From NCBI GenBank assembly GCA_032622095.1, contig CP136066.1, positions 205,118,978-205,182,977 of the forward strand: a DNA stretch of 64,000 nucleotides, read 5' to 3'. The stretch comes from Siphonodentalium dalli (lineage: Eukaryota; Mollusca; Scaphopoda; Gadilida; Siphonodentaliidae). A model generated the notes under the pieces. It searched no databases. It saw only the letters and a program-made list of their open reading frames with translations, and was not told where the DNA came from. Positions 1,596 to 18,920 of the stretch are shown here, in pieces (the stretch's first letter is position 1; the number at the start of each line of letters is the position of its first letter). The position numbers were made by a program, and so were the translations under genes.

Positions 1596-1601
1596 CATGT
1601 A
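1596..1601. repeat. Left target-site duplication of the Polinton
   Basis: The hexamer catgta directly precedes the terminal agtagtattggcgg. The same hexamer follows the mirror-image right end at 18818-18823. A 6-bp duplication is the known hallmark of Polinton integration. Confidence 0.92.
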
Positions 1602-2140: not shown

Positions 2141-2261
2141 GTTACCTTTCAGTGAAATGTTATGAGATAATGGTAAAATGGTAAAGATAAAATTTTCCCG
2201 AGTCAAATCGGTGTTTTATTCATAGAAATATGATGTTTTTGACAAAAAAGTAAAACAGCTG

Positions 2262-2340
2262 ATTTGACGTTCGGAGAAAATTGGTAGAAAAACTCAATGA
2301 CGTCGTCAACGAGGCCCGCGCACCCCATATATTTGATCCT
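2262..2340 (+). promoter_or_regulatory. Promoter module A (TGACGTCGTC class)
   Basis: The block contains ttgacgttcgg, then ggtagaaaaac, then tgacgtcgtcaacga at 2298, a GC-rich gcccgcgc and a TATA-like catatat about 70 bp before the ATG of gene A. The same order of elements occurs before genes B, C and D. The core resembles a CRE/ATF site (established consensus TGACGTCA). Its use as a promoter is inferred from position and repetition. Confidence 0.65.
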
Positions 2341-2397
2341 CGAAGATGTTAACGTTATTACATGCGTAAAATTGTAACGTTAGCGTTATTTTGAAAC

Positions 2398-2847
2398 ATG
2401 GATCCAGTAACGGAATTTCTCAAGACTATTGATGTGCAGTACGACCATGTTCCTGCAACAACGCAGATTTCGACTCCACTGTATGCAGGCAATATAACAC
2501 CACGGATAGAACATCAACAGGTACCAATGGTGTATCCGCGAACGGATCAACAACCAGTGTATACACCGCCGGTGAAAACACAACAAATGACTCAACCTGT
2601 TATATACCAAGTTATCAACAGTTCAAAATGGGAAGAACAGACAAAATTGTTACGGAATATTTGTCCGGAAATGAAGGATTTACGAAAGCAATTAACACAG
2701 AAACCGGTTGAATGTACAATCAACTTGAAACCTCACACGGTTGACATACCAATTGAGGTACATGGTTTCCAGAAAGAACATACGAAGCGATCAACATTTG
2801 GATCACTCGGGAAAGATTTAACAGTGATGAAGAAACAAAAGAAATGA
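2398..2847 (+). CDS. Polinton accessory protein A, unknown function
   Basis: The intact 149-residue frame starts at the first ATG after promoter module A and stops 20 nt before a histone-type stem-loop. The N-terminal 70 residues are rich in Pro, Gln and Thr. Residues 75-105 look helical and charged, and the C-terminus is basic (ends KKQKK). I do not recognise a family. No signal peptide or membrane segment is evident. Its place next to the left inverted repeat, outside the core block, is where adintovirus-type elements keep variable accessory genes. A role in host interaction would be a guess. Confidence 0.65.
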   Translation: MDPVTEFLKTIDVQYDHVPATTQISTPLYAGNITPRIEHQQVPMVYPRTDQQPVYTPPVKTQQMTQPVIYQVINSSKWEEQTKLLRNICPEMKDLRKQLTQKPVECTINLKPHTVDIPIEVHGFQKEHTKRSTFGSLGKDLTVMKKQKK

Positions 2848-2867
2848 TTTTTTATATTATTTTAAAC

Positions 2868-2911
2868 GGCCCTTTTCAGGGCCACTTAAAATTCACGAAA
2901 GATACGCTCTG
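2868..2911 (+). terminator. Histone-type 3' stem-loop and downstream element, gene A
   Basis: The sequence at 2868-2883 is GGCCCT-TTTC-AGGGCC: a perfect 6-bp stem with a 4-nt loop, preceded by AAAC and followed by AC. It fits the replication-dependent histone mRNA consensus GGYYCUUHUHARRRCC. A purine-rich gaaagatacgctctg starts 14 nt later, at the position of a histone downstream element. No AATAAA lies between the stop codon and this structure. Confidence 0.8.
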
Positions 2912-3111
2912 TATTATGCTATATGAAGATCGTATTATAGATATGAAGGGTGGTAGTGGTTTTTTTTTGTATTGTTAAGGAAGTATTCTTTGATATATAT
3001 ATATATAAATTATGTGAAGATTCTCTCCAAGTTCATGATGAATGAATTTGGTTTGAAGAAATTATGTGAACATTATCTCCAAGTTCAGGAAGAATGAACA
3101 AATCGTACAGT

Positions 3112-3163
3112 AGCAATTTCAGAGCGTATCTTTTAAAAAATTTGTGAGGCCCTGAAAAGAGCC
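3112..3163 (-). terminator. Histone-type 3' stem-loop and downstream element, gene B
   Basis: On the minus strand, 3163-3148 reads GGCTCT-TTTC-AGGGCC (one G-T wobble) after CCAAAAC. The element aaaagatacgctctg follows about 16 nt later and is nearly identical to those downstream of genes A and C. It lies about 145 nt after the likely end of gene B. Confidence 0.78.
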
Positions 3164-3306
3164 GTTTTGGATGGTTTCAAAAGAAACCGCACGATGTGTT
3201 TGTGTTTGAATACAGCTGAAAGTTGTCATGGGAACGTCGCAACCAAATGGCACAATTGCATGGCTGGCCTGTCTGTATCCCCCAGAGCGGCAAGAATTCG
3301 TAAACT

Positions 3307-3605
3307 CTATGCCCTGAGAAGATTATGATAGACCGCTGCAGTGATGTAGCCGCAAGTCACACCATCAATCTTGATGTCCCCAGCAATCTTGTGTGTCGGA
3401 ACCACCGTGGTGGCAATCCAAAGACTTGATCTCTATTGTCCGTCATCAGCATAACGGTGTACCTGTAGATATCAAAGAAGTTATCTACAGTACCCGTTTC
3501 TGCTAAACTCAAAGCCTTCCATATCATCTGTGCTTCATCCCCAAACACACCTCTCACCAGCATCCCATCCTCCAAATAGCTTCGATACAGATCACGGTAA
3601 TCCAT
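3307..3605 (-). pseudogene. Polinton accessory protein B, probable paralogue of gene D
   Basis: The minus-strand frame starts MDYRDLYRSYLEDG at 3605 and is open to 3357. Coding-like sequence in another frame continues to a stop at 3307, so one frameshift near 3420 is likely. The start follows promoter module B on the minus strand and the gene points toward gene A. Spacing and composition of the first 70 residues resemble gene D: M[DE]Y, a SY pair, then a W-containing helix and a G...F segment. Family unknown. Confidence 0.5.
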
Positions 3606-3639
3606 TTCGGTATGAATGAAGAATGGGGATATCTGGTTT

Positions 3640-3716
3640 TTTTTATTGAAAACGCGCAGACGTCACCGACGACGTCATGCGTTTTTTCTACCAAATTTCT
3701 CCGAACGTCAAATCAG
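3640..3716 (-). promoter_or_regulatory. Promoter module B (TGACGTCGTC class, minus strand)
   Basis: Read on the minus strand it gives ttgacgttcgg, ggtagaaaaaac, atgacgtcgtcgg and gcgcgttttcaa, in the same order as module A, about 35-110 bp before the ATG of gene B. With about 120 bp of flank it mirrors 2140-2320 and belongs to the inverted copy of the terminal region. Confidence 0.62.
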
Positions 3717-4130
3717 ATGTGTTTCTTTTTTTGTCAAAAACATCATATTTCTATGAATAAAACACCGATTTGACTCGGGAAAATTTGATCTGTACCATTT
3801 TACCATTATCTCATAACATATTTCACTGAAAGGTAACTTCTACGAGTACATTTTACAACGCTAGCGTCTTCGAATTTATTCGAAGACTTTCGCTTTTGTT
3901 AAAAAAATGCACTGGTAAAGTAGCACAATTAACCAACACATCTATTTTTTCTCGGTATTATTCTAAGTTCAATGTGTACAGCAAAGGGGAGCGCCCTTTG
4001 CTTACCACACTGCCATTAGAATCCGAGAAAAAATCGATACATTGGTAAATTGTGCTCTTTTCTGTCAAAAAATCCTTCGAAGCGCTCACCTTACTCTTTA
4101 TAATGTAACACAACCTCTGGACTGATGAAT
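3640..4130 (-). repeat. Internal inverted copy of the Polinton terminal region
   Basis: This segment is the reverse complement of about 1861-2325, including the gtcttcgaataaattcgaagac hairpin and the segment ending near the promoter module. It has the same orientation as the right terminal repeat. The outer GC-rich part is replaced by a shorter ctctgacc-rich palindrome (4140-4210). Together with 1602-2325 it makes a 2.5-kb mirror-image unit holding convergent genes A and B. Confidence 0.85.
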
Positions 4131-4271
4131 CCTAACCTGGGACCTGTCACTCTGGCCCACCCCTTCACTGACTGCCACTCTGACCCATGGGTCAGAGTGA
4201 CAGCCCAGGTTCTGATACCTGTCACTGACACACACCACATCGCTCGAGGTATTCTGGAAAAAAGAAACACA

Positions 4272-4350
4272 CTTGAATTGACGTTCGGGAAAATTTGGTG
4301 AAATATGCAATGACGTCGTCAGCGGCGTCCGCGCGTTTCATATAATATGG
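4272..4350 (+). promoter_or_regulatory. Promoter module C (TGACGTCGTC class)
   Basis: Contains ttgacgttcgggaaaa, a gcaatgacgtcgtcag core at about 4308, gcgtccgcgcgttt and a clear TATA-like tcatataatatgg at 4338, 30-40 bp before the ATG of broken gene C. Same order as modules A, B and D. Confidence 0.68.
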
Positions 4351-4380
4351 AGCGCAGTGTATCGTTTTTTTATCTTCAAA

Positions 4381-4717
4381 ATGTTCTCTAAACTAAAAAC
4401 TTCTCTGCCGATGCTCGATTAAAGCATTGGCAGAATAATGTTAGAGATTCGGAGAGCCATAAGATAGCCATTAGAGCTGGAGTTCAAGAATTCCTGCAAA
4501 GACGGAGACCCAGTCCTCCCAAGGTGTATGTGGAAACTCCAGAGTGGAACCCACGTATAAGGAGGGGGCATTATATCCAGATTTGTCTGAATATAATCCT
4601 CTAAGACCACTGCCAAGGTGGATTACCATTGAGGCAGCGAAATACGTGCGGGGTCCATACTGGAGACCCTCATACAACAAGGGAGGACTTTATCCTGATT
4701 TGTCTGAATTTTATTGA
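4381..4717 (+). pseudogene. Broken Polinton accessory gene C
   Basis: An ATG at 4381 follows promoter module C. The coding signal moves from frame 1 to frame 3 near 4419 and to frame 2 near 4570, ending at a TGA at 4715-4717, which implies two indels. The pieces are rich in Arg, Pro, Trp and Tyr, and a short motif (YPDLSE) occurs twice in the C-terminal half. It ends 19 nt before a histone-type stem-loop. Family unknown. The composition would suit a nucleic-acid-binding or virion core protein, but that is inference. Confidence 0.55.
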
Positions 4718-4736
4718 CTCGGCAAACAATTTAAAC

Positions 4737-4780
4737 GGACCTTTTCAGGGCCACCCAATTTTTTCAAAAGATACGCTCTG
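4737..4780 (+). terminator. Histone-type 3' stem-loop and downstream element, gene C
   Basis: Positions 4737-4752 read GGACCT-TTTC-AGGGCC followed by ACCCA, the usual histone 3' flank. The third stem pair is mismatched (A opposite G), in keeping with a decayed gene. The downstream element caaaagatacgctctg begins about 15 nt after the stem. Confidence 0.75.
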
Positions 4781-4822
4781 AAATTGCTAAAAAACGTAAC
4801 AAATAAATAAAACAAATAATAT

Positions 4823-4828
4823 TTTATT
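4823..4828 (-). terminator. Polyadenylation signal of the zinc-knuckle gene
   Basis: AATAAA on the minus strand, about 26 nt after the stop of the gene at 4854-5408. That gene therefore uses an ordinary poly(A) signal, unlike its convergent neighbour C. Confidence 0.55.
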
Positions 4829-4853
4829 CACTATTTTTAACTTTCTTGGAAGA

Positions 4854-5408
4854 TTATCGCGATAAACGTCTTTTTCTCTTTCTGCTAGACAAAGTGTTTT
4901 GCTTAATTTCAGTATCGTTAGTGCTTTTGGCTACAGCGTTAATCACTTCCATCTGCGAATCCTCCGTGTTTAGAATAGTGATTTCATCATTTGACACCTC
5001 GGTTGAGGCGTATAATTCACAACTCTCAGTTTTCACATCCGCGATCTCGTTAATTGACATCGCGGTTGAGTTCCATTGTTCCCCACTTTCAGCTTTCATA
5101 TCCGCTATATCATTAGTTAATGTCTCAGTTTGATCAATGTTAATAACATCATATGGTGTGAGATCATCGTTGTCTGATGTGTGCGTCCAAGTAGACTTCC
5201 CACGAGTAGATTCACTCAGCGTCAATGATGATTTTTTCATCTGACCAATCTTCTTTTTCGTAGTGCCATCACATTGAAAAGCCCAATGTGAACTCGAATT
5301 GCATCTAAAACAGTTACCGTATGGTGGTACCCACTTTGTATTCTTTAAAACTTCTAATGCAATTTTTCGTAAATGCTGTATGTTGTTACTCTGCAATCGT
5401 GGATCCAT
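4854..5408 (-). CDS. Zinc-knuckle (CCHC) accessory protein of the Polinton
   Basis: Intact 184-residue frame on the minus strand. Residues 33-46 contain NCFRCNSSSHWAFQC, a C-X2-C-X4-H-X4-C knuckle known from nucleic-acid-binding proteins. Ahead of it is a short helical N-terminus. After it come a Ser/Thr- and Asp/Glu-rich central region and a basic C-terminus (SRKRKRRLSR) that could act as a nuclear localisation signal. It is transcribed away from the polymerase from the shared palindromic promoter at 5441-5557. Such divergence from PolB is common for regulatory or early genes, but the function is not known. No lesion is seen. Confidence 0.65.
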   Translation of the reverse strand: MDPRLQSNNIQHLRKIALEVLKNTKWVPPYGNCFRCNSSSHWAFQCDGTTKKKIGQMKKSSLTLSESTRGKSTWTHTSDNDDLTPYDVINIDQTETLTNDIADMKAESGEQWNSTAMSINEIADVKTESCELYASTEVSNDEITILNTEDSQMEVINAVAKSTNDTEIKQNTLSSRKRKRRLSR

Positions 5409-5440
5409 TGTGAGCGTTCGGTGCGTTATTCAGTCGTCAG

Positions 5441-5557
5441 TGAAATGACGACGTGATGAAAAAGCGCGTCACTTTTATGCTCTGACACGGACGATGACTG
5501 CGCATGTCCGTGTCAGAGCATAAAAGCGACGCGATTTTTCATCACGTCGTCATTTCA
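5441..5557. promoter_or_regulatory. Palindromic bidirectional promoter between the zinc-knuckle gene and PolB
   Basis: Arms 5441-5491 and 5506-5557 are inverted copies with about two mismatches over 51 bp, around a 14-bp centre. Each arm contains tgaaatgacgacgtgatg and a TATA-like cataaaag facing the adjacent gene. Start codons lie 33 bp outside the left arm (5408) and 3 bp outside the right arm (5560). The symmetry would give both genes the same promoter elements at almost mirrored distances. Confidence 0.72.
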
Positions 5558-5559
5558 CG

Positions 5560-8500
5560 ATGAAGCGCCTTGTGCCATATTCAGATAGCGAAAGCGAACG
5601 AGATAATAGAAAGAGAGTGCGACTGGATGATGACTGTAAATATTATACTATAAAAAATCTGACCGATAAATACTCGAAGAAATTTAAAACAGCATCAAAG
5701 AAATTCAACGTCACATTTCAAGAATTTCATCAACCATTTCAAACTGTTCACAGAATTTTCAAAGATCTGGTGAACAGTTTGAAAGATGAGTGTGATGCAG
5801 GACCAAAAGATCAAATGAGAATTTCCATCTTTCATCCAGGGCTAGATCTAGCGATTCACGTCCCGTTCACTGAAGCAAAAGACCTGACGGGTGAATTATT
5901 GCTTGACAACATAGAAAAAGTTGCACAATCGAACAAAAAATTCAAAATTCATGACGGACAGAAGACATTTGACATCACTGTCACGCATATGCCTACAGGG
6001 ACCGCAAGACATACCTTACATTATGGAGCATTAGGTGAATAAATTCAAATGAAAACAGTAAAGAAAAGTATTCTTCTGATTAAGAACGTAGAAGATAACA
6101 TGTGTTTTGCGAGGGCTGTCGTTGTTGGTATGTGTAATACTGACAACAAAGATACAGCTGAATGGAAGCAACAATGGAAACGGATTACGAGGCCAGCAAG
6201 ACCTCCACAACGGGAAGCTGCGAAGTCATTGTTGGATAAAGTGGGTTTATCACACGACACCAGTTGCGGGGTTGAGGAATACAAAATTATTCAGGAACAA
6301 CTATATCCTGAGTATGTTATAAAAATACATAATCAATTTGCTGACGAAGGCTTTCTTTTTCAACCACCACCAGTTGGGAAAGAAAGTAAAGTTGTCCATC
6401 TATATTTCAATGACAACCACTACGATGTGATCACAACTGTCACGGGATTCCTTGGATGTGCTTATTACTGTGAACAATGTAATGTCGGATCGAGCAACAG
6501 ATGTGATCATATATGTCCATATAAGTGTATGTGTTTCGAGGGTCAGATATGTCCCTTTGAACGATGGATACACTGCATCAAATGTAAGAGGACTTTTAGA
6601 AGTAAACGATGTCTCGACAATCATTTGAAAAAATCATCAAAACAAGACAAAACTATTTGTGATATGATACACAAATGTCAGAAATGTGGGGTTGAAATCG
6701 TCACACGAAAGGATAGAAGACATATCTGTTCGGGAACAAAGAAGTGTAAATAATGTAAGGAAATCGTCGCATCAGATCACAGATGTCATATCCAACAGTA
6801 CCAAAAGAGAGAAACACAGAAAGAAGTAAAGGTACCATTCATATTTTTTTATTTTGAATGTCAACAAGATACTGGTGTTCATATACCCAATTTTTGTGTT
6901 GCACAAACTGCTTGTGAAAAGTTTATATGTAAACCCATTGATGAAATATGCATATCATGTGATTCTGTACTGCCAAACAGAGAATATGTTTTTAAAGGTG
7001 AGAATGTATTGGAAAGATTTTGTAAATGGTTGTTTGACACCAACGACCATAAAGGTACAACATGTATTGCTCACAATGCAAGAGGTTACGATAGTCAGTT
7101 CCTCTTACATTACTTGGTGAACAATGGAAATTCAAAACCTAATGTTATTATGAATGGTAACAAAATACTGAGTTTACAATGCAATTGTGTTAGAGTAATC
7201 GATTCATTGAGTTTCATCCCAATGGCATTATCTAAATTTCCAAAAACATTCAAACTTGAAGAAATGGCTAAAGGTTATTTTCCACATTGGGCAAATACAC
7301 AGGACTTTCAGAATTACGTAGGACCATATCTAGACAAAAAATACTATAAACCTGAAATCATGTCTGAGGAAAATAGGACTTCATTTCTCAAATGGTACGA
7401 AGCTAGGGGTGGGGATATTTTTGATTTCCAAAAAGAAATTCAAAAGTATTGTAAATCAGATGTAGACATTTTAAGACGTAGATGTGGCAAATTCAGACTA
7501 TGTGTAATGGAAACTGATCAAATAGATCCATTCCGGGAGGCAATAACATTAGCTCAAACCTGTAACCTTGCATGGAGAAAAAATTCATTACCAGAGAATT
7601 CTCTAGGTATAATTTCAGACGCTGGATATCCACAAGCGCGTAAATTTTCAATGAAAGCAATTCGATGGCTACGGTACATTGCTACAAAACAAAATGTAAA
7701 CATAAAACATGCTTTATATGGTGGTGAAGTTAAAATAGGCAGACATTTTGTTGATGGTTATCATGCAAAATCAAGCACAGTGTATGAAATGTATGGGTGT
7801 TTTTTTCTTGCTGTCCTACTTGCTATCCAGATAAAACCGCCGAAACCCATACAGTAATATAACAATGCATGAATTGTATGACAAAACAATAGAAACGGAA
7901 ACTGAAATCAAAAGCTTGGGATGCAAATTAATATGCATCTGGGAACATGACCTGGATAATAAATGTAAAGCAGACACAAATTTAAAACAGACTATGGATC
8001 AATTCTATTTGCACCAAGACCCAATTAAACCAAGGGAAGCATTATTTGGTGGCAGGACTAATGCTCTAAAATTATATCATGAAATAGAACCAACATCTAA
8101 ACAGGAAATAAAATATATTGATATATGCAGTTTGTATCCTAGTGTGAATAAATATAAGGAGTACCCTCTTGGCCATCCTGCAATTCTAAGTCAGGAACAA
8201 ATAGGAGACATCAAATCCTACAAAGGACTCATTAAATGCAAAGTATTACCTCCAAATAAATGGTACATTCCAGTGCTACCGATCCACTGTAATAACAAAA
8301 TGATATATACATTGTGTAAAACTTGTGCAGAAAATGAAAGTGGACAGTGTAGTCATAAAACCGAACAGCGTGCTTTAGTTGGAGTTTGGACGCATGTAGA
8401 ATTGTTCAAAGCAATAGAATTGGGTTACCAAATTCTGGAAGTGTATCAAGTTTGGCATTGGACTGAGTGGTCGGTCAAAGTATACAGGGATTACATTGAT

Positions 8501-9319
8501 AAATACCTCAATTAAACAAGAAGCAAGTGGATATCCAAATTCTGTTAAAAGTGAAGAAGATAAAGATAAATACATTAAAGATTATTATGAGGTTGAAGAT
8601 ATCAAACTTGAAAAAGAAAAAATCGAAAAAAAAACCAGGACTCCGCCAGTGTGCAAAATTAATGATAAATTTCATATGGGGAAAAAATGCACAAAATAAT
8701 ATTCTTACTAAAACTGAATATATCTCAGAACCATCCAGATATTTGGAACTATTAACTGATAAACATATCACCGTCAAAGCAGTTGAAATTTTTGAACAGG
8801 ATAAATTCATATTATTCAGCTATGAAAATAAAACCGATATTATAGAACCACATCCATCTACCAATGTAGCTGTTGCATCATTTGTCACAGCATATGCACG
8901 CTTGGAGTTGTATAAAGTTTTAGAAAAACTCCAAGATAGGGTGTTGTATTTCGACACCGATAGTTGTATGTATATTTTCGATCCAGAAAAAGAAAATATC
9001 AAAACCGAAGACAGCTACCTTGGTAAATGGACTGATGAACATCCGGATGCTAAAATCATGAAATTTGTAGGGTTAGGACCGAAAAATTATGGATATCAGT
9101 ACATGAAAGATGGTGTCGTAAAATCTGTATGTATGGTCAAGGGTATCACTCTGGATTAAAACTAAGCAGCAAATAAATTTTCAACGTGTCATAAACTATC
9201 CATGCAGAATTAAACACACAAAGAACCGAGAAGTAATTAGTGAAGAGCAAACAAAAACATTCCGATCTGTGTACACCAAACGACTTGTTGTGGGTGAATA
9301 CAACACAATTCCTTATTGA
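5560..9319 (+). pseudogene. POLB: Protein-primed family B DNA polymerase, disrupted
   Basis: One long coding region with in-frame stops at 6040 and 6751 and frame changes near 7805-7860, 8510, 8635 and 9150. The N-terminal part includes a DNMCFARA block typical of Polinton polymerases and a cysteine-rich zinc segment (about 6460-6740). Exonuclease motif II is AHNARGYDSQF (about 7070) and motif III is YCKSDVDIL (about 7447). Polymerase motif A is DICSLYPS (about 8121), motif B a weak KLMINFIWGK (about 8656), motif C YFDTDS (8947). The exonuclease motif I position reads FFYFE at 6844-6858, with Tyr where relatives have the first metal-binding Asp. About 1250 codons fits the family. This copy cannot encode an active enzyme. 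Confidence 0.93.
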
Positions 9320-9344
9320 TGGAATTGATGTGTTACCAGCAGAG

Positions 9345-9914
9345 ATGCTTTTGAAAATTTATAATAACTTGATCGAAATGTCAAAAATGGATCAAGAAAT
9401 CAAACAAGAACTTAAGCAAACTTGGTTTTTGAGGGAAAGTAAAATTATAGTGCAGACTTTGCTGAACGGACATTTCTCAGAGGGGCAGAGTCGACTGAGA
9501 TGTTTGATTGAGAGATCAGAATTTGAAACTGATTTCTTAATGGATATATTGGATCAACTGTTTTCAGATTATTGGATATTGCATGGTGCTCCTAAAAACG
9601 AAATAAACGAAATTCGTGAATTAGTTGAAAATAATTTTATTCGTTTTGCTGAATATCAAGACAGGATTCTCAATGAAAAAACTTTGAAATTCGAAGAGGT
9701 GACGAGAATATATGGATTCATTATTCTCCGAGAACCATGTACAATTTTCACTGCTGAAGAGTTATTTGAAGAAAAGGTGTCTTTGGATTATATTGTAAAA
9801 ACCACTAGACCTATTCCAGATTTAGATAATGAACTCATATGTACATTTGGAATAATCTGGAGTTATGGTGACTTTTCATTAAAAATAAAAAAGGTTGATT
9901 CCGAAAAATCCTAA
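9345..9914 (+). CDS. Unknown Polinton protein with a weak F-box-like start
   Basis: A long open frame overlaps the end of PolB. The first in-frame ATG is at 9345, and the frame is open upstream to 9240 without an ATG. Just ahead of and across this ATG it reads VLPAEMLLKIYNNL, which fits the LPxExLxxIxxxL start of an F-box, so the true start may lie upstream or have been lost. The rest is acidic and predicted helical with no motif I recognise. It lies between PolB and the ATPase in the plus-strand core block and is open to its stop. Confidence 0.5.
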   Translation: MLLKIYNNLIEMSKMDQEIKQELKQTWFLRESKIIVQTLLNGHFSEGQSRLRCLIERSEFETDFLMDILDQLFSDYWILHGAPKNEINEIRELVENNFIRFAEYQDRILNEKTLKFEEVTRIYGFIILREPCTIFTAEELFEEKVSLDYIVKTTRPIPDLDNELICTFGIIWSYGDFSLKIKKVDSEKS

Positions 9915-9945
9915 TCAGTCTTACATGATCTGTCTCAGGGCAAAC

Positions 9946-10595
9946 ATGGACGAATCATTGTTGTTCAAACATCCCTGTAACATTTTCATATCGGGGCCAA
10001 GTGGTTGTGGTAAAACAGATTTTGTTAAGAAATTAATCGAATATAAAGATGATTTGTTCAAACCTGTTCCAAACAAAGTCGTTTGGTGTAACAAAGAATG
10101 GCAAAATACCTATAGTCAGATGCAAGAATTTCACAATATTCAATTTATAAATGGAATACCAGATGATGACAATGAACTTGTCGATGACACAGACTTACCG
10201 CACCTCGTCGTTTTGATGACATGTTAGGTGATAAAGATGAAGAAAAAATTATGTTGTAGTTTACAAGAAAAGAACATAACAGAAATACGTCTGTTATTTA
10301 CATAACCCAAAACATGTTTCAGAAATCTAAAGCGAGTAGAACTTTGAGTTTGAATGCACATTACATGGTATTATCTCAAAGTGTGCGTGATAAAGGCCAA
10401 ATAAAAATTCTTGCCTCTCAAATGCAAATACCTCATTTAATGCAAGCATATGGTGATGCAACTTTAACCAATCATGGTTATTTACTACTCGATTTTCACC
10501 CAAAAACGGATACATCGTTGAGACTTAGAACTGATATTTTCCATCGCTGGCTCACAAATGACGATCGAGGTGCGGTAATATATTCATCGGTATAA
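9946..10595 (+). pseudogene. ATP: FtsK/HerA-type DNA packaging ATPase (A32-like), disrupted
   Basis: An ATG at 9946 gives residues 17-24 GPSGCGKT, a Walker A motif. A Walker B-like LVVL followed by two Asp codons sits at a frame change near 10214, and an in-frame TAG follows at 10257. The C-terminal half is open from about 10314 to the stop at 10595 and includes QNMFQ and SQSVRDKGQ segments typical of Polinton ATPases. The family packages viral genomes into capsids. The two lesions inactivate this copy. Confidence 0.88.
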
Positions 10596-10631
10596 AGATA
10601 AGTGTATCAACATAATATTTTATTTCCAATC

Positions 10632-11194
10632 ATGGAGTCGCATGAAGCAGTCTTGAGTGTATTTTCGACTATCGCTAAATTAATACTTGATGATCACTTA
10701 AAGCTTACAAAGCAGACACGAACATTCCTGCAAAAACACAAAAAAGAGCTGAAGAAACTCATATCGATTCAAAAAAGAAAATACTTTTAAAAACTGGTGG
10801 AGGTGGTTTTCTCGGTGGAGTTTTGATCAGAAGTCTTCTCAGACAAAAAGAAAATAAATCAATTGCACGAGTTAGATCAAATAGAGTAAATGCTACTCGA
10901 GTAAATTCTACGATTGCACAGCGAGCTAGCACAGTCAGAGTAAATTCTACAATTGCACAGCGAACTACTCCAGTTAGAGTAAATTCTACTGGATTAAATT
11001 CTACATTTGCTAGATTTCAACCACTCAACGATAATGGTCGGCAATCAATTCCATCAATTCAAGAAGCAGAACATTACCCGTTGGTTCAACGATACTCAAA
11101 AATTATGAATCTTTCAAACCCATCGAAATTAGCTTTGATGGAATTTGATCGTAATTTTAATAAATGTAAAGTAAAAAGTAATTCAGTCATTTGA
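10632..11194 (+). pseudogene. Basic virion-type protein with RVNSTIAQR repeats
   Basis: Starts MESHEAVLSVF at 10632 with a Lys-rich helical N-terminus. The frame shifts near 10780 into a glycine-rich GGGGF segment and an Arg-rich region. A 9-residue unit (RVNSTIAQR and variants) recurs two to three times at about 10885-10990. Position between the ATPase and the capsid block, charge, and a hydrophobic Gly-rich patch resemble small adenovirus-core-like proteins of Polintons. That is an analogy, not a motif match. Confidence 0.55.
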
Positions 11195-11217
11195 CATTCA
11201 ACTGTTGAAGAGTAAAG

Positions 11218-11559
11218 ATGGCGAAAAAAACTCCACTGATTAAAAAATATGGTAGTTTTGTAATGGCTATGAATCAGGCACCAACTCATTTTCGGAAAAA
11301 AATGATAGAAGATGCCACAAAGAGAGTGATTGATTGCATGCCAGAATGCTGTAAAAATATTTTAAAAGGCAATGTAAAACTAACAGTAGCTCAGAAGCGC
11401 AAACTTCGTCCGAGGTGTAGACACCTCAGAGAACTTGCAAGTAAATCAACATCTGGGAAACGAAAAAAACTAATTTTAAACCAGAAAGGAGGTTTTTTAC
11501 CACTTCTTATGCTAGCACCATTGCTTGGTAAAGCAGTCGCTGGAATACTTCGCGGTTAA
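11218..11559 (+). CDS. Small basic virion protein with GGFLPLL tail
   Basis: Intact 113-residue frame. The N-terminus is basic, the middle has a conserved-looking Cys cluster (CMPECCKNIL), and the end is KGGFLPLLMLAPLLGKAVAG, a glycine-led hydrophobic tail. Polintons and adenoviruses have small Arg/Lys-rich proteins with a GGFLP hydrophobic stretch (pX/pVI-like), so a core or membrane-active minor virion protein is plausible. It sits directly between two other virion-type genes; the next ATG is 3 nt after its stop. Confidence 0.65.
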   Translation: MAKKTPLIKKYGSFVMAMNQAPTHFRKKMIEDATKRVIDCMPECCKNILKGNVKLTVAQKRKLRPRCRHLRELASKSTSGKRKKLILNQKGGFLPLLMLAPLLGKAVAGILRG

Positions 11560-11561
11560 AC

Positions 11562-12760
11562 ATGAAGAAAATGGTCGCTGTTCCCTTCAAAATGTTGGAT
11601 AACATTAAAAAATGGAGAATGAGTCTAACTAATCCGAAATGATCACCTAATCCTGAAATTACGAATGTTTCAAAACTAAGCAGAGAATTGAATTCAGTTT
11701 CTGATCAAAATTTGTCAGAATCTGAGAAGGTTAAATTATATGGTACAACTTTGCACAAATTGAAAACTTCTAAAAAATCAGTTAGAGCTATTTCAGCCCC
11801 GAAAACAGAACAACCATTTAATCATCATCATAGAGATGTGCTAGAAAGTATTCCGTTAAAGATGAGAAGAAAAGCTAAACAATTTTTACAACTGATTTCA
11901 AAACATCCACAAATGAAGTTTGATGAACATGGACAATTAAAATATGGTGAAAAAGTTATTAGAGGATCAAATATTGTTGATCTCCTCAATGATATTGTAC
12001 GACAAAGAAAAGGTTTCGAACCAACAGGTTGTCAAAGCTTTTCACAAGGTTTGAGCGAGCTTAAAGGTACTCAACCCGATAAAACTCCTCTCAATTACTA
12101 TTTCAATGGCTTCGGGGGTCAAAAATATTTGATTCGAATCGAGGAAGTCACCCATCAAAGCTCAGATTTGTTAGATATCGATTTTAGAAATCTATTATTT
12201 TTCATTATCGGGAATACTATCTGGCCCAGAACTCAGTCAAAATTGCGTTAAAATTACCACTTGATTTTAGAGTTATTCATCCTTGTCTGTTTGAATAGAT
12301 TTGGAGTACATATCCAGAGCAGATTACGGCAGTTATTAGTACACATCTCGAGAACATAACAAATTTGAAAAATCAATATCTAATAACTCTGAGCTTTGTT
12401 TGATGGGTTCCTCGACTCGAATCAAATATTTTTTACCCCCAAAGCCAAAGAAATAGTAATATAGGACCCTCTGATCGGATTGTTGTTGTTGGAATCTGTT
12501 GAGATGGGGACCCTCTTTACGGGTTGAGTACCTTTAATGTACCTCAAGATTTTGTAGGGAACAGAAACTGCTGGCTTTGGATTAAAAAACATTTGAAAGA
12601 TGATTCAGATGATGATTTTGAAACTTCGGTACAAAGCATAACACCAAAACAATTTGATTCTCATCGATTCACACCAATGAAAGGTATAAAAGCAAGACAT
12701 TCAAAAACTAAAATAGCAAAGGGTATTAAAACAGAAAAATCACAATGGGATCAATACTAG
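11562..12760 (+). pseudogene. Conserved Polinton protein upstream of integrase, split by a MITE
   Basis: An ATG at 11562 runs in frame to a TGA at 11640. The same frame then continues to 12060, where a TTAA-flanked element (12065-12533) interrupts it, and coding resumes at about 12538 to the stop at 12760. Recognisable blocks include SIPLKMRRKAKQFLQLI and GSNIVDLLNDIV, which I associate with a hypothetical protein found in many animal Polintons next to the integrase. The insertion plus duplicated TTAA is 473 bp, which explains the frame change. Biochemical role unknown. Confidence 0.7.
12065..12533. mobile_element. TTAA-type MITE inserted in the Polinton
   Basis: The element is bounded by TTAA at 12061-12064 and 12534-12537. 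Its ends are aggtactcaacccg and cgggttgagtacct, with imperfect inverted repeats of about 150 bp. A TTAA target duplication is characteristic of piggyBac-type transposition. Related copies lie at 51180-51631 and, truncated, at 31310-31459. No transposase frame inside. Confidence 0.88.
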
Positions 12761-13828
12761 ATGAACAGTTATCTAAAATTTTCTATAATCCGATGAAAGT
12801 TGGAAGTTATGGCGGTGTAAAGAAGCTTTTTGATGAAGCGAAAAAGCAAAATAAAAAAATTAAACTCATAGATGTGAAGAAATGGTTTCAAGGTCAGTCG
12901 ACATATACTTTACACAAACCAATAATTCGAAAATTCCAACGTAGAAAGACTGTTGTAGCTGGGATTGATATTCAATGGCAGGCAGATTTAGCTGATCTTC
13001 AGAATTTGAAAAAACATAATGATAATTACAGATATCTGTTGTGTGTGATAGACGTTTTTTCAAAATTTGCGTGGGTATTGCCAATCCACGATAAATCTGG
13101 ACAAACTGTGATCGAATCATTCAGGAAAATTTTGAAATCTTCAAAACGTAAACAAAAATCGTTTCAAGCTGATAAAGGTTCTGAATTCAAAAATGAAAAG
13201 TTTTTGAAATTCTGCGATCAGAAAGCATTCATTTCTTCACAACTGAGAATCCAGAGACTAAAGCAAGTATTGTCGAACGATTTCAAAGAACTTTAAAAAC
13301 TCGTATGTGGAAGTATTTCACACACAATAAAACTTCAAGATATATTGATGTTTTATAGCCCCTAGTCGATTCTTACAACAATAGTTATCACCGCAGCATA
13401 AAATCGAAACCGTCGGCAGTTACTTTGAAAACTGAAGCTGAAATTTCCAAAAATCTATATGGAACAGGGAATAAAAAAGGAAAATCTACACTGAAAGTGG
13501 GTGACTTGGTTCTATCAACAAAACCAAAAGAACATTTGAAAAGGTTTATTTACCAAACTGGACTCGTGAAATTTTCAAAGTTGATAAAATTTGCAAAACT
13601 AATCCAATAACATACAAAGTTTCTGATCTTGATGGTGAAGAGATTGGTGGATCATTCTACAAACATGAAATCCAGCATATAAAAGACAGTAAGGTGTATG
13701 AAATAGAATCAGTTATTGATAAAAGAACGAGAAGAGTGGGTGGTAAAACAGTAAAAGAAATTAAAGTTCATTGGCTTGGATATCCAGAAAAGTTTGACAG
13801 TTGGATCCCAGCTTCAAAGTTAGTATAA
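12745..13828 (+). pseudogene. INT: Retroviral-type integrase with C-terminal chromodomain, disrupted
   Basis: Starts at 12745, overlapping the previous stop by 16 nt. The rve catalytic domain shows the first Asp in QADLADL (residue 81), the second in QADKGSEF (residue 143) and the glutamate codon at 13275-13277, after a frame change near 13245. An in-frame TAG follows near 13357, and another frame change lies near 13550. The C-terminus (about 13690-13828) has the chromodomain pattern VYEIESVID...HWLGYPE...DSWIPASKL, with its aromatic positions retained. Polinton integrases usually carry such a domain, thought to guide insertion to modified chromatin. Confidence 0.92.
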
Positions 13829-13841
13829 AACAGAATTTACC

Positions 13842-14099
13842 ATGTTGAAAAATCATTCAGATTCAATTAATCTCGATGAACCATCACAATTTAAATTATG
13901 TGGTGAAAAAGTTGCTAAGAACCAAGTCACCTACTTCACGCAGATAATTATTATTTATATCATAATAATTACATCTATTGTACACATTAGTATCCAGAGC
14001 GCAAACAAAGAATTGTGGCTTATTCTTCTAAGTAGTTCTCTAGGTTATATTCTACCAACACCTGCACTCAAATTATTGAAAAATACTGAGAAAAAATGA
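13842..14099 (+). CDS. Small two-helix membrane protein of Polintons
   Basis: Intact 85-residue frame. Residues 29-50 form a strongly hydrophobic helix (QIIIIYIIIITSIVHIS) and residues 58-76 a second (LWLILLSSSLGYILP). Lengths and motifs match a small conserved membrane protein that lies between integrase and minor capsid genes in many animal Polintons. The function in the virus is not established. Its stop overlaps the start of the next gene. Confidence 0.7.
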   Translation: MLKNHSDSINLDEPSQFKLCGEKVAKNQVTYFTQIIIIYIIIITSIVHISIQSANKELWLILLSSSLGYILPTPALKLLKNTEKK

Positions 14100-14943
14100 A
14101 TTTATTCTACATAACTCTCATGAGTGATAGTTAAATTTCACTTTACCCAGCCAACTCACAATGTTGTTTCGCAGTGAAATTACCAAAAACCATACATATT
14201 GATAAAGAGCTTTGGGAAGTTGCAATGGTTGAACTAATTGTACCCTCAGAAACATACAACATTATTGGAGATGCCTGCAAAATAAAAATAAAAACTTCTG
14301 TTCCAAGAATTTTACAATATTTGAATAAGATACCAATGAGTGATGTAGTAATTTCAAAACCAGAAAATGGTATAGAATTAAAAATACCAGAAGGAGCATA
14401 TTCTGGTGGATCACATTTGACAGATACAATTCAAGGTGTAATTGATAGTACAGTAAGCAGCATGATTCCAGAACTGAAATTCGAATTCGGATATTCCAAA
14501 GCACAACAACGAGTTAAAATTTCAATCAATAGTTATACCAAAGTAGGTATTGTACTCCCCAGAGCTCTTTTGGATAAACTTGGTTACAGAACAGAATCAA
14601 ACACTGTCACATTTGCTACTCCTTCAATAACATTTCCATATCGAGTTGATTTAAATGCGGAGCATAATCAATTGTTTGTTTATTCTGACATTGCTGATTA
14701 TACAATTCTTAGTGATGTTGAAGCACCGATATTACGAGTGACAACATTCGAGAGTAAAAGAATACATGATGGTAAACATATTAAGCATGACTTCAAAACT
14801 TACATTATGTACCAGTATCAAAGTCTAGCTTTGATACCATAAATGCATATATAACTGGTGTTAGTGGCAAACCAATTCAGTTTATTGGTGGAAAGTCTAT
14901 GGTAAAGTTGCAATTCCGACGCGGAGGTAATTTGTATTTATGA
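14096..14943 (+). pseudogene. Minor capsid (penton-type) protein, disrupted
   Basis: An ATG at 14096 overlaps the preceding TGA. An in-frame TAA at 14132 interrupts the short N-terminus, and the main body is open from 14174 with LPKTIHIDKELWEVAMVE, the characteristic opening of Polinton penton-like proteins (single jelly roll). The frame changes near 14815 and the coding signal runs to a TGA at 14941-14943. The order penton-type, pVI-like, major capsid is typical of these elements. Confidence 0.82.
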
Positions 14944-15277
14944 TGATCCCCGTGTATAGAGGCGTACCTAGACAGTATGGAAATGGAATTGGTTCACTAT
15001 TCAAATCTGCAATGAGAACAGTAGTACCGTTTCTAAAACCTATTGGTCAGATTGCTAAACAACAAGTATTCAAGCTTGGACTTGCTGCAGCTTTGGGAAA
15101 CAATAAAGAAAATATCAACACCTTTTGGGGTAAACAATAAAGAAAATATCAACACAAAATGGCATAAATAGATCATCGCGACCTTTGAAAAATCAGTCTT
15201 CTCGCAAAGGAGTTAGAAGTAAGTCCATTAAAACGCCTGTAAAGAAATCAAAACGATCTCTCGATATATTTGATTAA
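14940..15277 (+). pseudogene. pVI/pX-like minor virion protein, frameshifted
   Basis: The ATG at 14940 overlaps the penton stop (ATGA). The N-terminus RGVPRQYGNGIGSLFKSA is followed by an amphipathic helix with Val/Pro/Leu-Lys pattern, as in small Polinton proteins compared with adenovirus pVI or pX. A tandem duplication of 31-34 nt at 15091-15155 shifts the frame. A basic Ser/Arg/Lys-rich tail ending KRSLDIFD continues in another frame to 15277. Confidence 0.65.
15091..15155. repeat. Short tandem duplication that breaks the pVI-like gene
   Basis: The block ending aaacaataaagaaaata plus tcaacac occurs twice, at 15091-15121 and 15122-15155, with 3 nt of difference in length. The length is not a multiple of three. 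Confidence 0.85.
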
Positions 15278-15279
15278 TC

Positions 15280-16583
15280 ATGATGATGCAAAATGGATCA
15301 TGCGAATGCAGCAAGTCCGAGTTAGATGCTTCTGATGTTCCACAAACAATGACAACGATGTTGGAATCACAATGGATAGAACATCACCCGATTAGCTCTT
15401 TGAATAATTCCGCACCAGTAGAATTTGTAATTCCACCTCAAACTGAAAAATGGACAGATGTAGATCAATCATATTTGTACCTGAAATTCAAAATCACAAA
15501 AGCAGTTGGAACAAACTTGGTTGATGGTACTGATGAAATTGCGCCTATTAACAACTTTTTCCATAGCATGCTCAGTAGTATCGATATTTACCTAAATAAC
15601 AAACTTGTAATGGCGAACGGAGATACCTATCCTTATCGAGCCTACATGGAAAATCTCTTAACTTATTCTCGTGAATGTAAAGAAAATCAACTTGCCGCAC
15701 TAGAAATGTGGTACCCCGACACCGCTAAACAGTTCACCGAAAACATTAAACTGGTGGTTATGATGGATTGAAATCTCGCCAAGCAATCATAGCAGGTAGT
15801 AAAACGGTAGAATTGTGTGGTCGTTTACACACAGATATATTTCTACAAGAGAAATACTTACCAAATGGAATTGAGATAAGAATTCGTCTCAATAGAGCGA
15901 ATCCAAAATTCTCTTTAATTGGTCAGGCCAACGGAAAAATAGTATTTGAAACGGCAGTTTTCAATGTTCGTGCAATTACGCTGATGCCAGTAGTAGCAAA
16001 TAACTTGAACCAAACAATAATACAGAAAAATATGAAAATACCGATTAGAAGAGTTGAAGTAAAAACATTCCCTATTGGTGCAGGGCTTAGATCAAAAATT
16101 GAAGATCACCTTTTTCAAGGACAATTGCCAAAGTGACTTTTCATTGGCTTGGTATCAAACAAAGATATGAATGGCGATATTGAAACGAACCCATTTCATT
16201 TCCAACACTTCAATCTGAAAAAACTTGAAGTTAGTCAGGACGGACATATCATCCATAACCGACCATTTGAACCAAACTTTGAATCAGAACAATGCCTAAG
16301 ATCTTATTTATCACTGTATCAGTCTTCCGGTATGTTTGGACAAAACAAATCCTTTGGTTTGAATCTCGAAAAATACATGAATGGTTATTGTTTCTGGGGT
16401 TACGACCTCACACTTGACCAAGGAGCAGAGGAAGTACATTTGCATCCTATTAAAACCGGTAACATAAGGTTAAAGCTTCAGTGTGCTGCAGCTCTAGCTT
16501 CAGTGATCAACGTGATAGTCTATGCTGAGTTCGATAATCAAATTGAAATCAACAGTTTGAGAGAAATAATAACAGATTATTAA
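15280..16583 (+). pseudogene. MCP: Major capsid protein (double jelly roll), disrupted
   Basis: Starts at 15280. The N-terminal jelly-roll half has VEFVIPPQTEKWTDVDQSY and FFHSMLSSIDIYLNNK, blocks I recognise from Polinton major capsids. A one-base frame change lies near 15755, and an in-frame TGA at 16134-16136 precedes the C-terminal half, which ends with a VIVYAEFDNQIEI strand and a stop at 16583. The length of about 434 codons is in the usual range. The protein forms the hexon-like shell in related virions; this copy is non-coding in practice. Confidence 0.88.
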
Positions 16584-16587
16584 AAAC

Positions 16588-16868
16588 ATGGATGAATTGC
16601 ATTTGGAGGAAAAAAATTGAGACTGGAAGTTGGAGGACTCGATTTCATTCCATATGTTTCTATCCTTGACAAAGTTCGGAAAACTTTCGAGAAATGTTTC
16701 GTTCATGAAATACAAAATCAAATTTCAAAAGAAGTGACACTCAATTGTGAATGATGTAAAATAGATCATACAAGTCAGACACGACATTTACTTTGTCTTT
16801 GGACACCACCTATACAATGGGTAGATATGTTCATTGATATAGCACTACTTAAATTGAACATCTACTGA
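16588..16868 (+). pseudogene. Small unknown Polinton protein, disrupted
   Basis: The ATG lies 5 nt after the major capsid stop. A run of A near 16612 carries a frame change, and an in-frame TGA lies at 16752-16754. Segments such as LEVGGLDFIPYVSILDKV and a Cys/His-containing stretch (TSQTRHLLC) suggest a small zinc-binding protein. Family not recognised. Confidence 0.42.
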
Positions 16869-16871
16869 GTT

Positions 16872-17045
16872 ATGGAACAATGGTATCCAGAAATAGAATC
16901 ATTTACACCACAAGAGAAATTTGAGGCATTCAAACTTTGGAAAGATATAAAGGAAGTTGTTCATGCAAACTGTAACTAATTTAATTCGTTTTTTGTTGAC
17001 TTGTGGTCTGAAAAAGTTAAAAAATACTACGAAGATGAACACTAG
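16872..17045 (+). pseudogene. Small helical Polinton protein, one stop
   Basis: Opens MEQWYPEIESFTPQEKFEAF at 16872 and shows a Trp/Lys-rich helical pattern. An in-frame TAA lies at 16977-16979, after which the same frame stays open to a TAG at 17043-17045, overlapping the protease start. Unknown function. Confidence 0.4.
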
Positions 17046-17517
17046 CGAACTTCAGCATATACTAGACAAATCATCCTACCTATGTTCATTGTATGGTGTG
17101 GTGTGTGCAAAAGATCAGTTACCACACGAGAAACCTCATCATGTAAAAGCATACATAGTAAATACACATAAGTCAGAAAAGCCAGGAGAACACTGGTTTG
17201 CAATTTTCTTCAATGGGAATATTGCAACATATTTCGATTCGTTTGGGATACCAGTTATTGATAAATATATCAAATCATTTATTCAAAGAAATTCGATCGA
17301 ATGTAAAATAAACGTTGGGCGGTTTCAACATCACGGCACAAACGTGTGTGGTATCTACTGTATATTTGCTTTACATTTCTTGAAAAGCGGATATGGTATA
17401 AAAGTATTAGTTGAAATGAATTTTTATGGTGACTACTTCAAAAATGATAGAAAAGTATTTGATTGGTTTCATAGAAATATGTTGATTGTTAATGATGAAA
17501 TGATTTACCAAATGTAA
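17035..17517 (+). CDS. PRO: Adenain-like cysteine protease (maturation protease)
   Basis: Intact 160-residue frame. The catalytic set of the adenovirus protease/Ulp1 (C5/C48) fold is visible: His53 in GEHWF, Asp68 in ATYFDSFG, Gln98 in RFQHHGTN and Cys105 in TNVCGIYC. Length and spacing fit the Polinton PRO family, which processes virion precursors. It is the last gene of the plus-strand core block and is followed by AATAAA at 17601. No lesion is seen, in contrast with the neighbours. Confidence 0.92.
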   Translation: MNTSELQHILDKSSYLCSLYGVVCAKDQLPHEKPHHVKAYIVNTHKSEKPGEHWFAIFFNGNIATYFDSFGIPVIDKYIKSFIQRNSIECKINVGRFQHHGTNVCGIYCIFALHFLKSGYGIKVLVEMNFYGDYFKNDRKVFDWFHRNMLIVNDEMIYQM

Positions 17518-17600
17518 ATTATGTTCATTGCATTACCAATTATTGATTGTAAATATGATAATTTCATGATCAGTTGTAAATATGTTGATTCTTAATTCAA

Positions 17601-17606
17601 AATAAA
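17601..17606 (+). terminator. Polyadenylation signal of the core gene block
   Basis: AATAAA lies 84 nt after the protease stop, with a T-rich tgttgttga and gtgtctgttttt downstream. Core genes thus appear to use ordinary cleavage and polyadenylation. Confidence 0.6.
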
Positions 17607-17693
17607 AGTTATGTTGTTGAAAAACAGTGTCTGTTTTTAATGATCGTCTTCGGCATTGTCGATGAAGATCTTAATTCACCAAAAAAGAAAACA

Positions 17694-17772
17694 CATTTGA
17701 AATATCATTCGGGAAAATTGGTAGAAAATCACAATGACGTCGCCAACGACGTCCGCGCGTTTTACATATAAC
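17694..17772 (+). promoter_or_regulatory. Promoter module D (TGACGTCGTC class)
   Basis: Contains catttgaaatatcattcggg, ggtagaaaatcac, atgacgtcgccaacgacg, tccgcgcgtttt and a TATA-like acatataac at 17764, about 40 bp before the ATG of gene D. Confidence 0.66.
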
Positions 17773-17806
17773 AAACATCCAGTTTAGCGCATATCATTTC
17801 TCCACG

Positions 17807-18238
17807 ATGGAATACCCTAAAACTGATCTTGGATCTTATGTCAGAGCCATCCGTGTATCGGCCCCGAGGGACATTGCGGTGTGGGAGACCATTTCCTGGG
17901 CAGTGTATGGTGCAGGTGAAAAGTTCTGTGAACTATTCACTTTTACCTGTGCAACATGGGCTCGCAATCCTACACTGTTCAGTGGACAGGAGACAGAACA
18001 CATCGAATGGCTTGGGACAACAGGTGTCTTACTTGCGGTGGTGGCAACCCTTCTGCAGAGAAAGCTCGTGTTTTGGAAAAAGAAAAAGCAGTACAGATTA
18101 GACGTATCCCCATTGAAGGGTGTGAGTATACCGCAAGGTATATTTCCACCTCTCATCGAGGGTTCGCTTGTGTTTCGGGAGTTGGATCAAGAGGATGGAT
18201 TTGAGTTCCTAAAGACCCCTTATCCACTTTTCTTGTGA
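17807..18238 (+). CDS. Polinton accessory protein D, unknown function
   Basis: Intact 143-residue frame between promoter module D and a histone-type stem-loop 13 nt after its stop. It opens MEYPKTDLGSYVRAIRV. Residues 25-50 look helical with Trp and aromatic residues, residues 75-90 form a hydrophobic helix (TTGVLLAVVATLLQRKL), followed by a Lys cluster (FWKKKKQYR), so a single membrane segment with a basic flank is possible. The N-terminal third resembles gene B. Family unknown. Confidence 0.62.
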   Translation: MEYPKTDLGSYVRAIRVSAPRDIAVWETISWAVYGAGEKFCELFTFTCATWARNPTLFSGQETEHIEWLGTTGVLLAVVATLLQRKLVFWKKKKQYRLDVSPLKGVSIPQGIFPPLIEGSLVFRELDQEDGFEFLKTPYPLFL

Positions 18239-18251
18239 TCTAACGTAAAAC

Positions 18252-18295
18252 GGCCCTTTTCAGGGGCCACCCAAAACCTGCTATCAGATGGCTCT
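18252..18295 (+). terminator. Histone-type 3' stem-loop, gene D
   Basis: Positions 18252-18268 read GGCCCT-TTTC-AGGGGCC followed by ACCCA. One extra G bulges the 3' arm. A diverged downstream element (atcagatggctcttg) sits about 14 nt later, aligning with agatacgctctg of the other three. Confidence 0.72.
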
Positions 18296-18817
18296 TGCAT
18301 GCACATTTCACAGCGCTAGCGTCTTCGAATTTATTCGAAGACTTTCGCTTTTGTTAAAAAATGCACTGGTAAAATAGCACAATTTACCAACACATCTATT
18401 TTTGCTCGGTATTATTCTAAGTTCAATGTGTACAGCGAAGGGGAGCGCCCTTCGCTTACCACACTGGCATTAGAATCCGAGGAAAAATCGATACATTTGT
18501 AAATTGTGCTCTTTTCTGTCAAAAAATCCTTCGAAGCGCTCGCCTTACTCTTTATAATGAAACACAACCTCCGGACAGACCCTGGGCGGGACACTCTGGC
18601 CCACCCCCTCGCTGCGCGACACTCTGTCCCGGACCAGTGTCCCGCAGGATTTGGTTTGGATTTTTTTCTGGCCCACCCATGCACCTCGCTGTCCAGAGTG
18701 TCCCGCAGCAAGGTGGGTGGGCCAGAAAAAATCCAAACAAAATCCTGCGGGACAATCTGGCCCGGGCCAGAGTGTCGCGCAGCGAGGGGGTGGAACAGAG
18801 TGTCCGCCAATACTACT
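18290..18817 (-). repeat. Right terminal inverted repeat of the Polinton
   Basis: Reverse complement of the left end with scattered substitutions and small indels in the GC-rich palindromic part. It ends ccgccaatactact, mirror of the left start. Confidence 0.9.
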
Positions 18818-18823
18818 CATGTA
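18818..18823. repeat. Right target-site duplication of the Polinton
   Basis: catgta, identical to 1596-1601. Confidence 0.92.
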
Positions 18824-18920
18824 TGCAGAGACTTGTTATTGAGAATAAAATATTGTTTACACTAAATCAGCCAAAATAAACCCCTAAACTACCCCAGCTA
18901 CACCACCTTAACACATACTT

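Follow-up and report, generated by a model that had tools for sequence, protein, structure and literature searches.

Histone-type 3' stem-loops behind a class of short accessory genes in Polinton-like elements of Siphonodentalium dalli point to a probable use of the host SLBP/U7 pathway

The mRNAs of replication-dependent histones are matured by a dedicated pathway, in which SLBP sits on a stem-loop at the 3' end, the U7 small nuclear ribonucleoprotein (snRNP) pairs with the RNA, cleavage takes place after the loop and no poly(A) is added. To our knowledge, this type of 3' end is commonly considered exclusive to the replication-dependent histone mRNAs. Here, we analyse a stretch of 64,000 nucleotides (nt) from the scaphopod mollusc Siphonodentalium dalli (assembly GCA_032622095.1, contig CP136066.1, positions 205,118,978 to 205,182,977), which we call the window and which contains, at 1602-18817, a complete Polinton-like (adintovirus-like) element. 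Four short genes of this element, termed A, B, C and D, are each followed by a histone-type stem-loop, and such loops recur in a second Polinton family of the same genome. We consider it highly probable that, in this endogenous Polinton lineage, the transcripts of one class of viral genes are processed by the host SLBP/U7 machinery, giving mRNAs without poly(A) whose expression is probably linked to S phase.

The four stem-loops proposed by an earlier reading of this stretch (the original prediction) are all present (Table 1), and all of them lie in the sense orientation relative to their genes. They had been described as following short non-histone genes, at 13-20 nt from the stop in A, C and D, and the gaps between frame end and loop agree with this at all four genes. 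For B and C, whose frames are both broken in the window copy, the gap was for this reason counted from where homology to the second-family proteins ceases; since this homology reaches 3180 in gene B, B also fits the spacing, despite its early in-frame stop. The AAAC that was said to precede all of the loops except one actually precedes the four of them. The ACC(C)A-like flank attributed to three loops is found as an exact ACCCA after C and D, whereas A is followed by ACTTA and B by TCACA. Similarly, the downstream element claimed for three loops, with a close variant at the fourth, is found as an exact AGATACGCTCTG 16 nt past the stem in A, B and C, but D only has AGATGGCTCTTG, at 17 nt.

A relaxed loop pattern (two mismatches) matches 6 times in the 64 kb of the window, where 0.95 matches are expected, and 100 shuffles never gave as many. 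A stricter pattern, which was picked after the sites were known, gives 4 matches in the element, against none in 1000 dinucleotide shuffles. No family reaches its gathering score in an Rfam scan of the window; with E values up to 10, the histone stem-loop family RF00032 has exactly four matches there, which are sites A to D (E 5.8e-6 to 0.032). Two further pattern matches are both outside the element and without an RF00032 match: one at 44670-44685, with two mismatches, and one at 21986-22001, which lies inside an open reading frame (ORF) and was set aside. The latter ORF (21850-22407) contains an arginine-rich stretch that resembles ORFs in host histone clusters (L023, L024), perhaps through a common repeat. 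Searched alone with two mismatches allowed, AGATACGCTCTG occurs 3 times against 2.34 expected, which is not above chance; we thus rejected the downstream element as stand-alone evidence, and its value comes from its fixed position beside the loops. As for chance hairpins, they are ruled out by the position, the orientation and the repetition of the loops, and by the shuffles.

To look at the signal beyond the window, the 2.23-Gb host genome (9 contigs) was searched with RF00032, which gave 409,530 first-look candidates, of which 75 were scored, all above 34 bits. The five best of these 75 scored matches, at 43.2-44.2 bits, follow non-histone genes of the second Polinton family, and the matches in histone clusters reach 42.2 bits, below these five viral ends. 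That the top matches could be host histones was rejected, as the corresponding loci (L001-L005) have no histone ORF. Fourteen regions were fetched around 14 of the listed places, and they turned out to be 11 second-family Polinton loci and 3 histone clusters, which together show H2A, H2B and H4. Twelve of the 75 listed matches fall in the 11 second-family loci (34.8-44.2 bits); the remaining ones, presumably next to histone genes, fall in the same two cluster regions. Thus, although the four sites of the window score below the RF00032 cut-off of 34 (23.8-33.8 bits), an outcome that the original prediction had listed among those which would refute it, related second-family elements exceed it, and the signal does recur, above the Rfam cut-off, behind the homologous genes A, B and C of the second family and behind an additional gene, termed X.

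The 11 second-family loci contain 47 pattern-matching loops (2 to 5 per locus), and AAAC precedes every one of them. Relative to the stop of a same-strand ORF of at least 60 amino acids (aa), 34 of these loops are found at 12-22 nt and 10 at 41-59 nt, while 3 have no such stop within 60 nt. The count took ORFs in all frames, so that some of the stops may be there by chance, and decayed loops outside the pattern were left out; the chance expectation for this placement is about 6% (about 210 kb of strand contain 212 such stops). The loops of the group at 41-59 nt mostly appear to be the distal member of the pair carried by gene X, which is followed by two stem-loops in tandem, GGCCCTTTTCAGGGCC and then GGTCCTTTTCAGGACC, with a downstream element after the second (L013:4105-4148; most of L012-L022 are similar). 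The third stem pair shows a C-G to T-A exchange in 10 of the 47 loops, and the three nucleotides after the loop are ACC (17), AAA (9), AAC (9), ACA (9), ACT (2) or AAT (1). The loops could also be thought to act as DNA, as a hairpin for replication, packaging or transcription stop that merely mimics a histone loop, considering that the sequence is near-palindromic as DNA and that genes A and B are convergent. We regard this as extremely unlikely: 44 of the 47 second-family loops stand in sense orientation past a stop, with AAAC before all of them and the downstream element after, and the identical string is found on the host histone genes.

The two families have diverged. Between them, the N-terminal part of PolB is 52% identical over 541 positions and two later PolB pieces are 59% identical, and the identity is 27% over 83 aa for A (E 5e-5), 36-38% for B and 32% for E, a gene without a stem-loop, while gene C is recognisable solely in a 26-aa stretch. 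No counterpart of the second-family gene X was found in the window family. The loop and AAAC are nevertheless kept alike across these families, which is evidence for constraint, and it is this comparison, rather than that within the young first family, which provides it. Neither 6 kb of core genes nor the right end of a single second-family element yielded a loop.

Within the first family, to which the window element belongs, gene A has at least 150 scored matches in the host genome (from 483 first-look candidates). In the 39 copies analysed, including that of the window, loop A is exact in 27, carries small changes in 11 and is lost in 1. Loop B, alignable in 38 of the 39 loci, has the form GGCCCTTTTCAGGGCC in 22, the window form in 3 and other changes in 13. 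For gene C, 22 loci were examined and the anchor was found in 9, corresponding to 7 distinct copies, 6 of which have the loop and the downstream element exact. The conservation values are 0.992 for the downstream element, 0.937 for the gap between stop and loop and 0.933 for the later flank. A slower evolution of the loop within this young family was looked for and not seen, and is not used here as support.

Several viral ends also resemble the histone genes of the host in their sequence. Viral and host ends have AAAC, the loop and a AAAAGATA-like stretch in common, in many cases with a more distal ATTGCTA. Nine viral post-loop regions were compared to those of host H4, H2B and H2A, with 2000 mononucleotide shuffles each. 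Against H2B, only 0 or 1 of the 2000 shuffles did as well for B, C, second-family C, second-family B (L013) and X, so that five of the nine viral ends are clearly H2B-like. Against H2A, the counts are 0 for X, 1 for B (L013), 2 for second-family C, 4 for C and 9 for B, and they are higher for second-family A (88), A (258), B (L018) (292) and D (393). The host histone loops, submitted to the same count of stop distances, lie 29-35 nt past the stop in 8 of 11 cases, the other 3 being without such an ORF (two of them near the end of the locus).

The loop genes are further set apart by their 5' side. A, B, C and D have a promoter module in common, with TGACGTC and a TATA-like motif (direct-repeat family D4), and the loop genes of the second family have a common module of their own, which is somewhat similar. 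This module was not seen by eye in the host histone promoters (L024, L025), so that only the 3' end is host-like. In contrast to the loop genes, E and PolB are served by a palindromic divergent promoter without the A-D module, and the core block ends at an AATAAA, as originally claimed; it lies at 17601, after the protease gene. This different promoter and this ordinary AATAAA suggest that the genes of the virus fell into two classes, each controlled in its own way at the 5' and at the 3' side. On the sense strand, there is no AATAAA or ATTAAA for about 900 nt past A and B, nor past D within the element, and the next AATAAA after D, at 18844, belongs to the flanking DNA. The palindrome itself (5440-5558) has 53-bp arms, and a different palindrome occupies a like place in the second family; in Rfam, it gives sub-threshold matches to microRNA precursors.

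The anatomy of loop, AAAC and spacing, its repetition behind several genes, its conservation between families, the likeness to H2A and H2B and the absence of loops from the core stretches examined all support the SLBP/U7 interpretation of the original prediction. The loop genes form a repeated cassette composed of a promoter module, a short accessory gene (A, B, C or D in the first family; A, B, C or X in the second) and a histone-type 3' end. In the latter, AAAC precedes a 6-bp stem closed by a TTTC loop, many copies have an ACC-like flank, and a host-like downstream element follows. SLBP would bind the loop, the U7 snRNP would base-pair with the downstream element, and CPSF73 would cut a few nucleotides past the loop. 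The resulting mRNAs, devoid of poly(A), would be made and translated mainly in S phase, like histone mRNAs. We infer the use of SLBP and U7, the lack of poly(A) and the coupling to S phase from these sequence features. Taken one step further, this would describe a whole viral regulon under host histone-mRNA control, in which genes with a common promoter module and an SLBP/U7 3' end give S-phase-bound mRNAs lacking poly(A), the core genes being polyadenylated in the ordinary way, and this we consider likely.

Several observations weigh against this reading. All four window sites are under the Rfam cut-off, C having a mismatch and D an extra base, and ACC follows the loop in just 17 of the 47 second-family cases. 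The likeness to H2B is not significant for A (629 of 2000 shuffles), D (739) and second-family B at L018 (207), and it is marginal for second-family A (76); against H4, the count is low for just B (1), C (12) and X (24). The evidence comes from a single host genome, in which both families could share the signal from one common ancestor. Moreover, loop conservation in the first family is no better than that of coding third positions (0.965 vs 0.960), and an AATAAA is found at 4802, 50 nt past loop C.

The last of these points would be expected if the loop only had an auxiliary use, binding SLBP for the timing of translation or for stability on mRNAs that are polyadenylated, or polyadenylated as well. 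A dual 3' processing is reported for the host H2A.X, as named in the title of PMC7807067. However, A, B and D have no close downstream AATAAA or ATTAAA inside the element. SLBP binding by itself would also not require a downstream element at a given distance, and A, B and C have retained both the element and its spacing, so that we find this explanation unlikely. The conservation values of the first family would rather fit a functionless relic, that is, a 3' end taken over a single time from a histone gene of the host and later duplicated with its cassette, and such an origin would also agree with the H2B-like flanks and with the duplication of cassettes within the element. What argues against it is that the 16-nt loop is intact across families that are 52-59% identical in parts of their polymerase, with proteins and flanks diverged, and that several genes hold the loop at a similar distance; we therefore judge a relic very improbable. 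Processing of the loop genes by the host SLBP/U7 machinery remains the reading that we prefer.

Neither Pfam, PHROGs nor NCBIfam gave a usable match for the proteins encoded by the loop genes (C and X being searched through the second-family proteins only), nor did the PDB for A and B/D. Six A proteins have MDPxTEF and further invariant residues in common. B (3177-3605) and D (17807-18238) are 25% identical over 89 positions (E 6e-5), and this weak similarity suggests an old duplication. An OTU-like character of B/D was a mere impression for which no support was found, and an AlphaFold2 model of D was uninformative (mean predicted local distance difference test score of 40). One second-family element showed no gene D at its right end, and guessed places next to four copies of the first family showed none either.

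The element is identified as Polinton-like by its ends, its PolB and its integrase (Table 1). The insertion is bounded on both sides by a 6-bp target duplication, CATGTA, and the terminal 15 nt of its inverted ends are perfect. PolB matches PF03175 with E values of 8.8e-22 and 7.9e-6 in its two window pieces, the second one just under the cut-off, and of 3e-38 in the second family. The packaging ATPase only gives a weak match in the window (Adeno_IVa2, 20.1 bits vs a cut-off of 21), a Pfam search with the capsid candidates gave no usable match, and a chromodomain (PF00385), which accompanies the integrase in adintoviruses, exceeds its cut-off solely in the second family. The terminal repeat is partly found again as an internal inverted copy at 3654-4125, which bears the promoter of gene B; A and B are thus a convergent pair between facing repeats. 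A short tandem repeat translating as MAQYPPVGGT-like lies beside second-family elements, apparently at their termini (L012-L022, L070:1424-1771), and the first-family termini have a related-looking CACTCTGGCCCACC repeat. Elsewhere in the window, the ORFs 37418-38137 and 39049-39579 resemble the reverse transcriptase and GIY-YIG portions of a putative Penelope-like element.

Table 1. Features of the Polinton-like element in the window, with loop scores against RF00032 and supporting comparisons
Feature	Position	Strand	Remarks
Target-site duplication CATGTA, left	1596..1601	.	next to inverted end, perfect over 15 nt
Left terminal inverted repeat region	1602..2321	+	inverted repeats I2, I3, I4, I9, I10; direct-repeat family D4
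Promoter module of gene A	about 2245-2331	+	inner end of left terminal repeat
Gene A, 149 aa, intact frame here	2398..2847	+	homologous to second-family gene A
Stem-loop A, GGCCCTTTTCAGGGCC	2868-2883	+	20 nt past stop; 33.8 bits
Downstream element A, AGATACGCTCTG	2900..2911	+	exact in 35/39 copies
Downstream element B, AGATACGCTCTG	3120..3131	-	exact in 26/38 copies
Stem-loop B, GGCTCTTTTCAGGGCC, one T-G wobble	3163-3148	-	13 nt past homologous frame end; 24.5 bits
Gene B, in-frame stop after 82 codons and gaps	3177..3605	-	tblastn with second-family B, 36% over 146 positions; homology to 3180
Promoter module of gene B	3640..3731	-	inner end of inverted copy 3654-4125; repeats I9, I14, I21, I23
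Promoter module of gene C (TGACGTC, TATA)	4258..4345	+	family D4
Gene C, early frame break here	4381..4717	+	C-terminal part vs second-family C, tblastn 46% over 26 aa, E 3e-4
Stem-loop C, GGACCTTTTCAGGGCC, one A-G mismatch	4737-4752	+	19 nt past stop; 26.8 bits
Downstream element C, AGATACGCTCTG, then AAATTGCTA	4769..4780	+	AAATTGCTA much like host H2A/H2B by sequence comparison
Gene E, zinc-knuckle-like, without stem-loop, comparison gene	4854..5408	-	Pfam (below cut-off); homology to second family
Palindromic divergent promoter of E and PolB	5440..5558	.	inverted repeat I12; without A-D module
PolB gene region, split into several frames, without stem-loop	5560..9159	+	PF03175 in 7865-8512 and 8587-9156
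Integrase (rve)	12745..13296	+	PF00665, E 7e-11
Putative adenovirus-type protease, final gene of core block	16963..17517	+	PF00770 below cut-off; second-family homologue above
Promoter module of gene D	17682..17768	+	family D4
Gene D, 143 aa	17807..18238	+	weakly similar to gene B
Stem-loop D, GGCCCTTTTCAGGGGCC, one extra G in 3' arm	18252-18268	+	13 nt past stop; 23.8 bits
Downstream element D, divergent AGATGGCTCTTG	18286..18297	+	not significantly host-like
Right terminal inverted repeat	18296..18817	-	repeat analysis
Target-site duplication CATGTA, right	18818..18823	.	matches left copy

A lineage that has left at least 150 relics of one loop gene, and that uses the same signal for several different proteins, would offer a natural experiment on the requirements and the effects of the signal. 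If our reading is true, it could show whether this signal suffices for expression in S phase, and whether it allows a virus to escape a control based on poly(A) or to exploit dividing, germline or embryonic cells. It would also mean that RNA sequencing with poly(A) selection misses the transcripts of the loop genes. The stem-loop is also a readable marker for a class of Polinton genes. We know of no other virus that draws on the histone pathway to express non-histone genes, and this lineage would be the first.

As for previous reports, the titles and the beginnings of abstracts in the open-licence literature contain no description of histone stem-loops on viral or transposon genes that we could find, and a prior description is possible. 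The IMG/VR database was searched with two loop patterns, which matched six contigs, three of them apparently phage-like by their ORFs and three without a Polinton-like gene near the loop; single-protein queries with the integrase and with PolB found no relative there.

The element shares with Polinton/Maverick elements and adintoviruses PolB, the rve integrase, a putative adenovirus-type protease, the inverted ends and the 6-bp target duplication, and it differs from them by an accessory gene class with histone 3' ends. In the available portions of two articles on such elements, the terms stem-loop and polyadenyl have no match, and histone has 2 matches in that on adintoviruses (PMC11071296) and 0 in that on vertebrate Mavericks (PMC8097293). 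In a different kind of agent, the potato spindle tuber viroid, the sequence of loop 27 is the same as that of the histone loop, and this loop 27 has roles in replication and trafficking, with no known plant SLBP, according to the accessible part of PMC6827988; this is a plant RNA agent whose loop, as described there, has no extended stem and is not involved in an mRNA 3' end. Viral histones, such as those of bracoviruses and giant viruses, are also a case of viruses exploiting histone biology, and the available portion of a review on them (PMC9145170) has no match for stem-loop, SLBP or polyadenyl. In contrast to these, no histone was recognised among our loop genes, and it is the mRNA ending alone that is used. 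The closest likeness is to the replication-dependent histone 3' end (RF00032) itself, with which the viral ends share the loop and stem, the AAAC before it, the downstream element about 16 nt further on, the short genes and, at three of the four window genes, the lack of a nearby poly(A) signal inside the element. The differences are that the distance from stop to loop is mostly 12-22 nt in the viral genes against 29-35 nt in the eight host histone loops, and that the viral loops follow the non-histone genes of a mobile, virus-like element.

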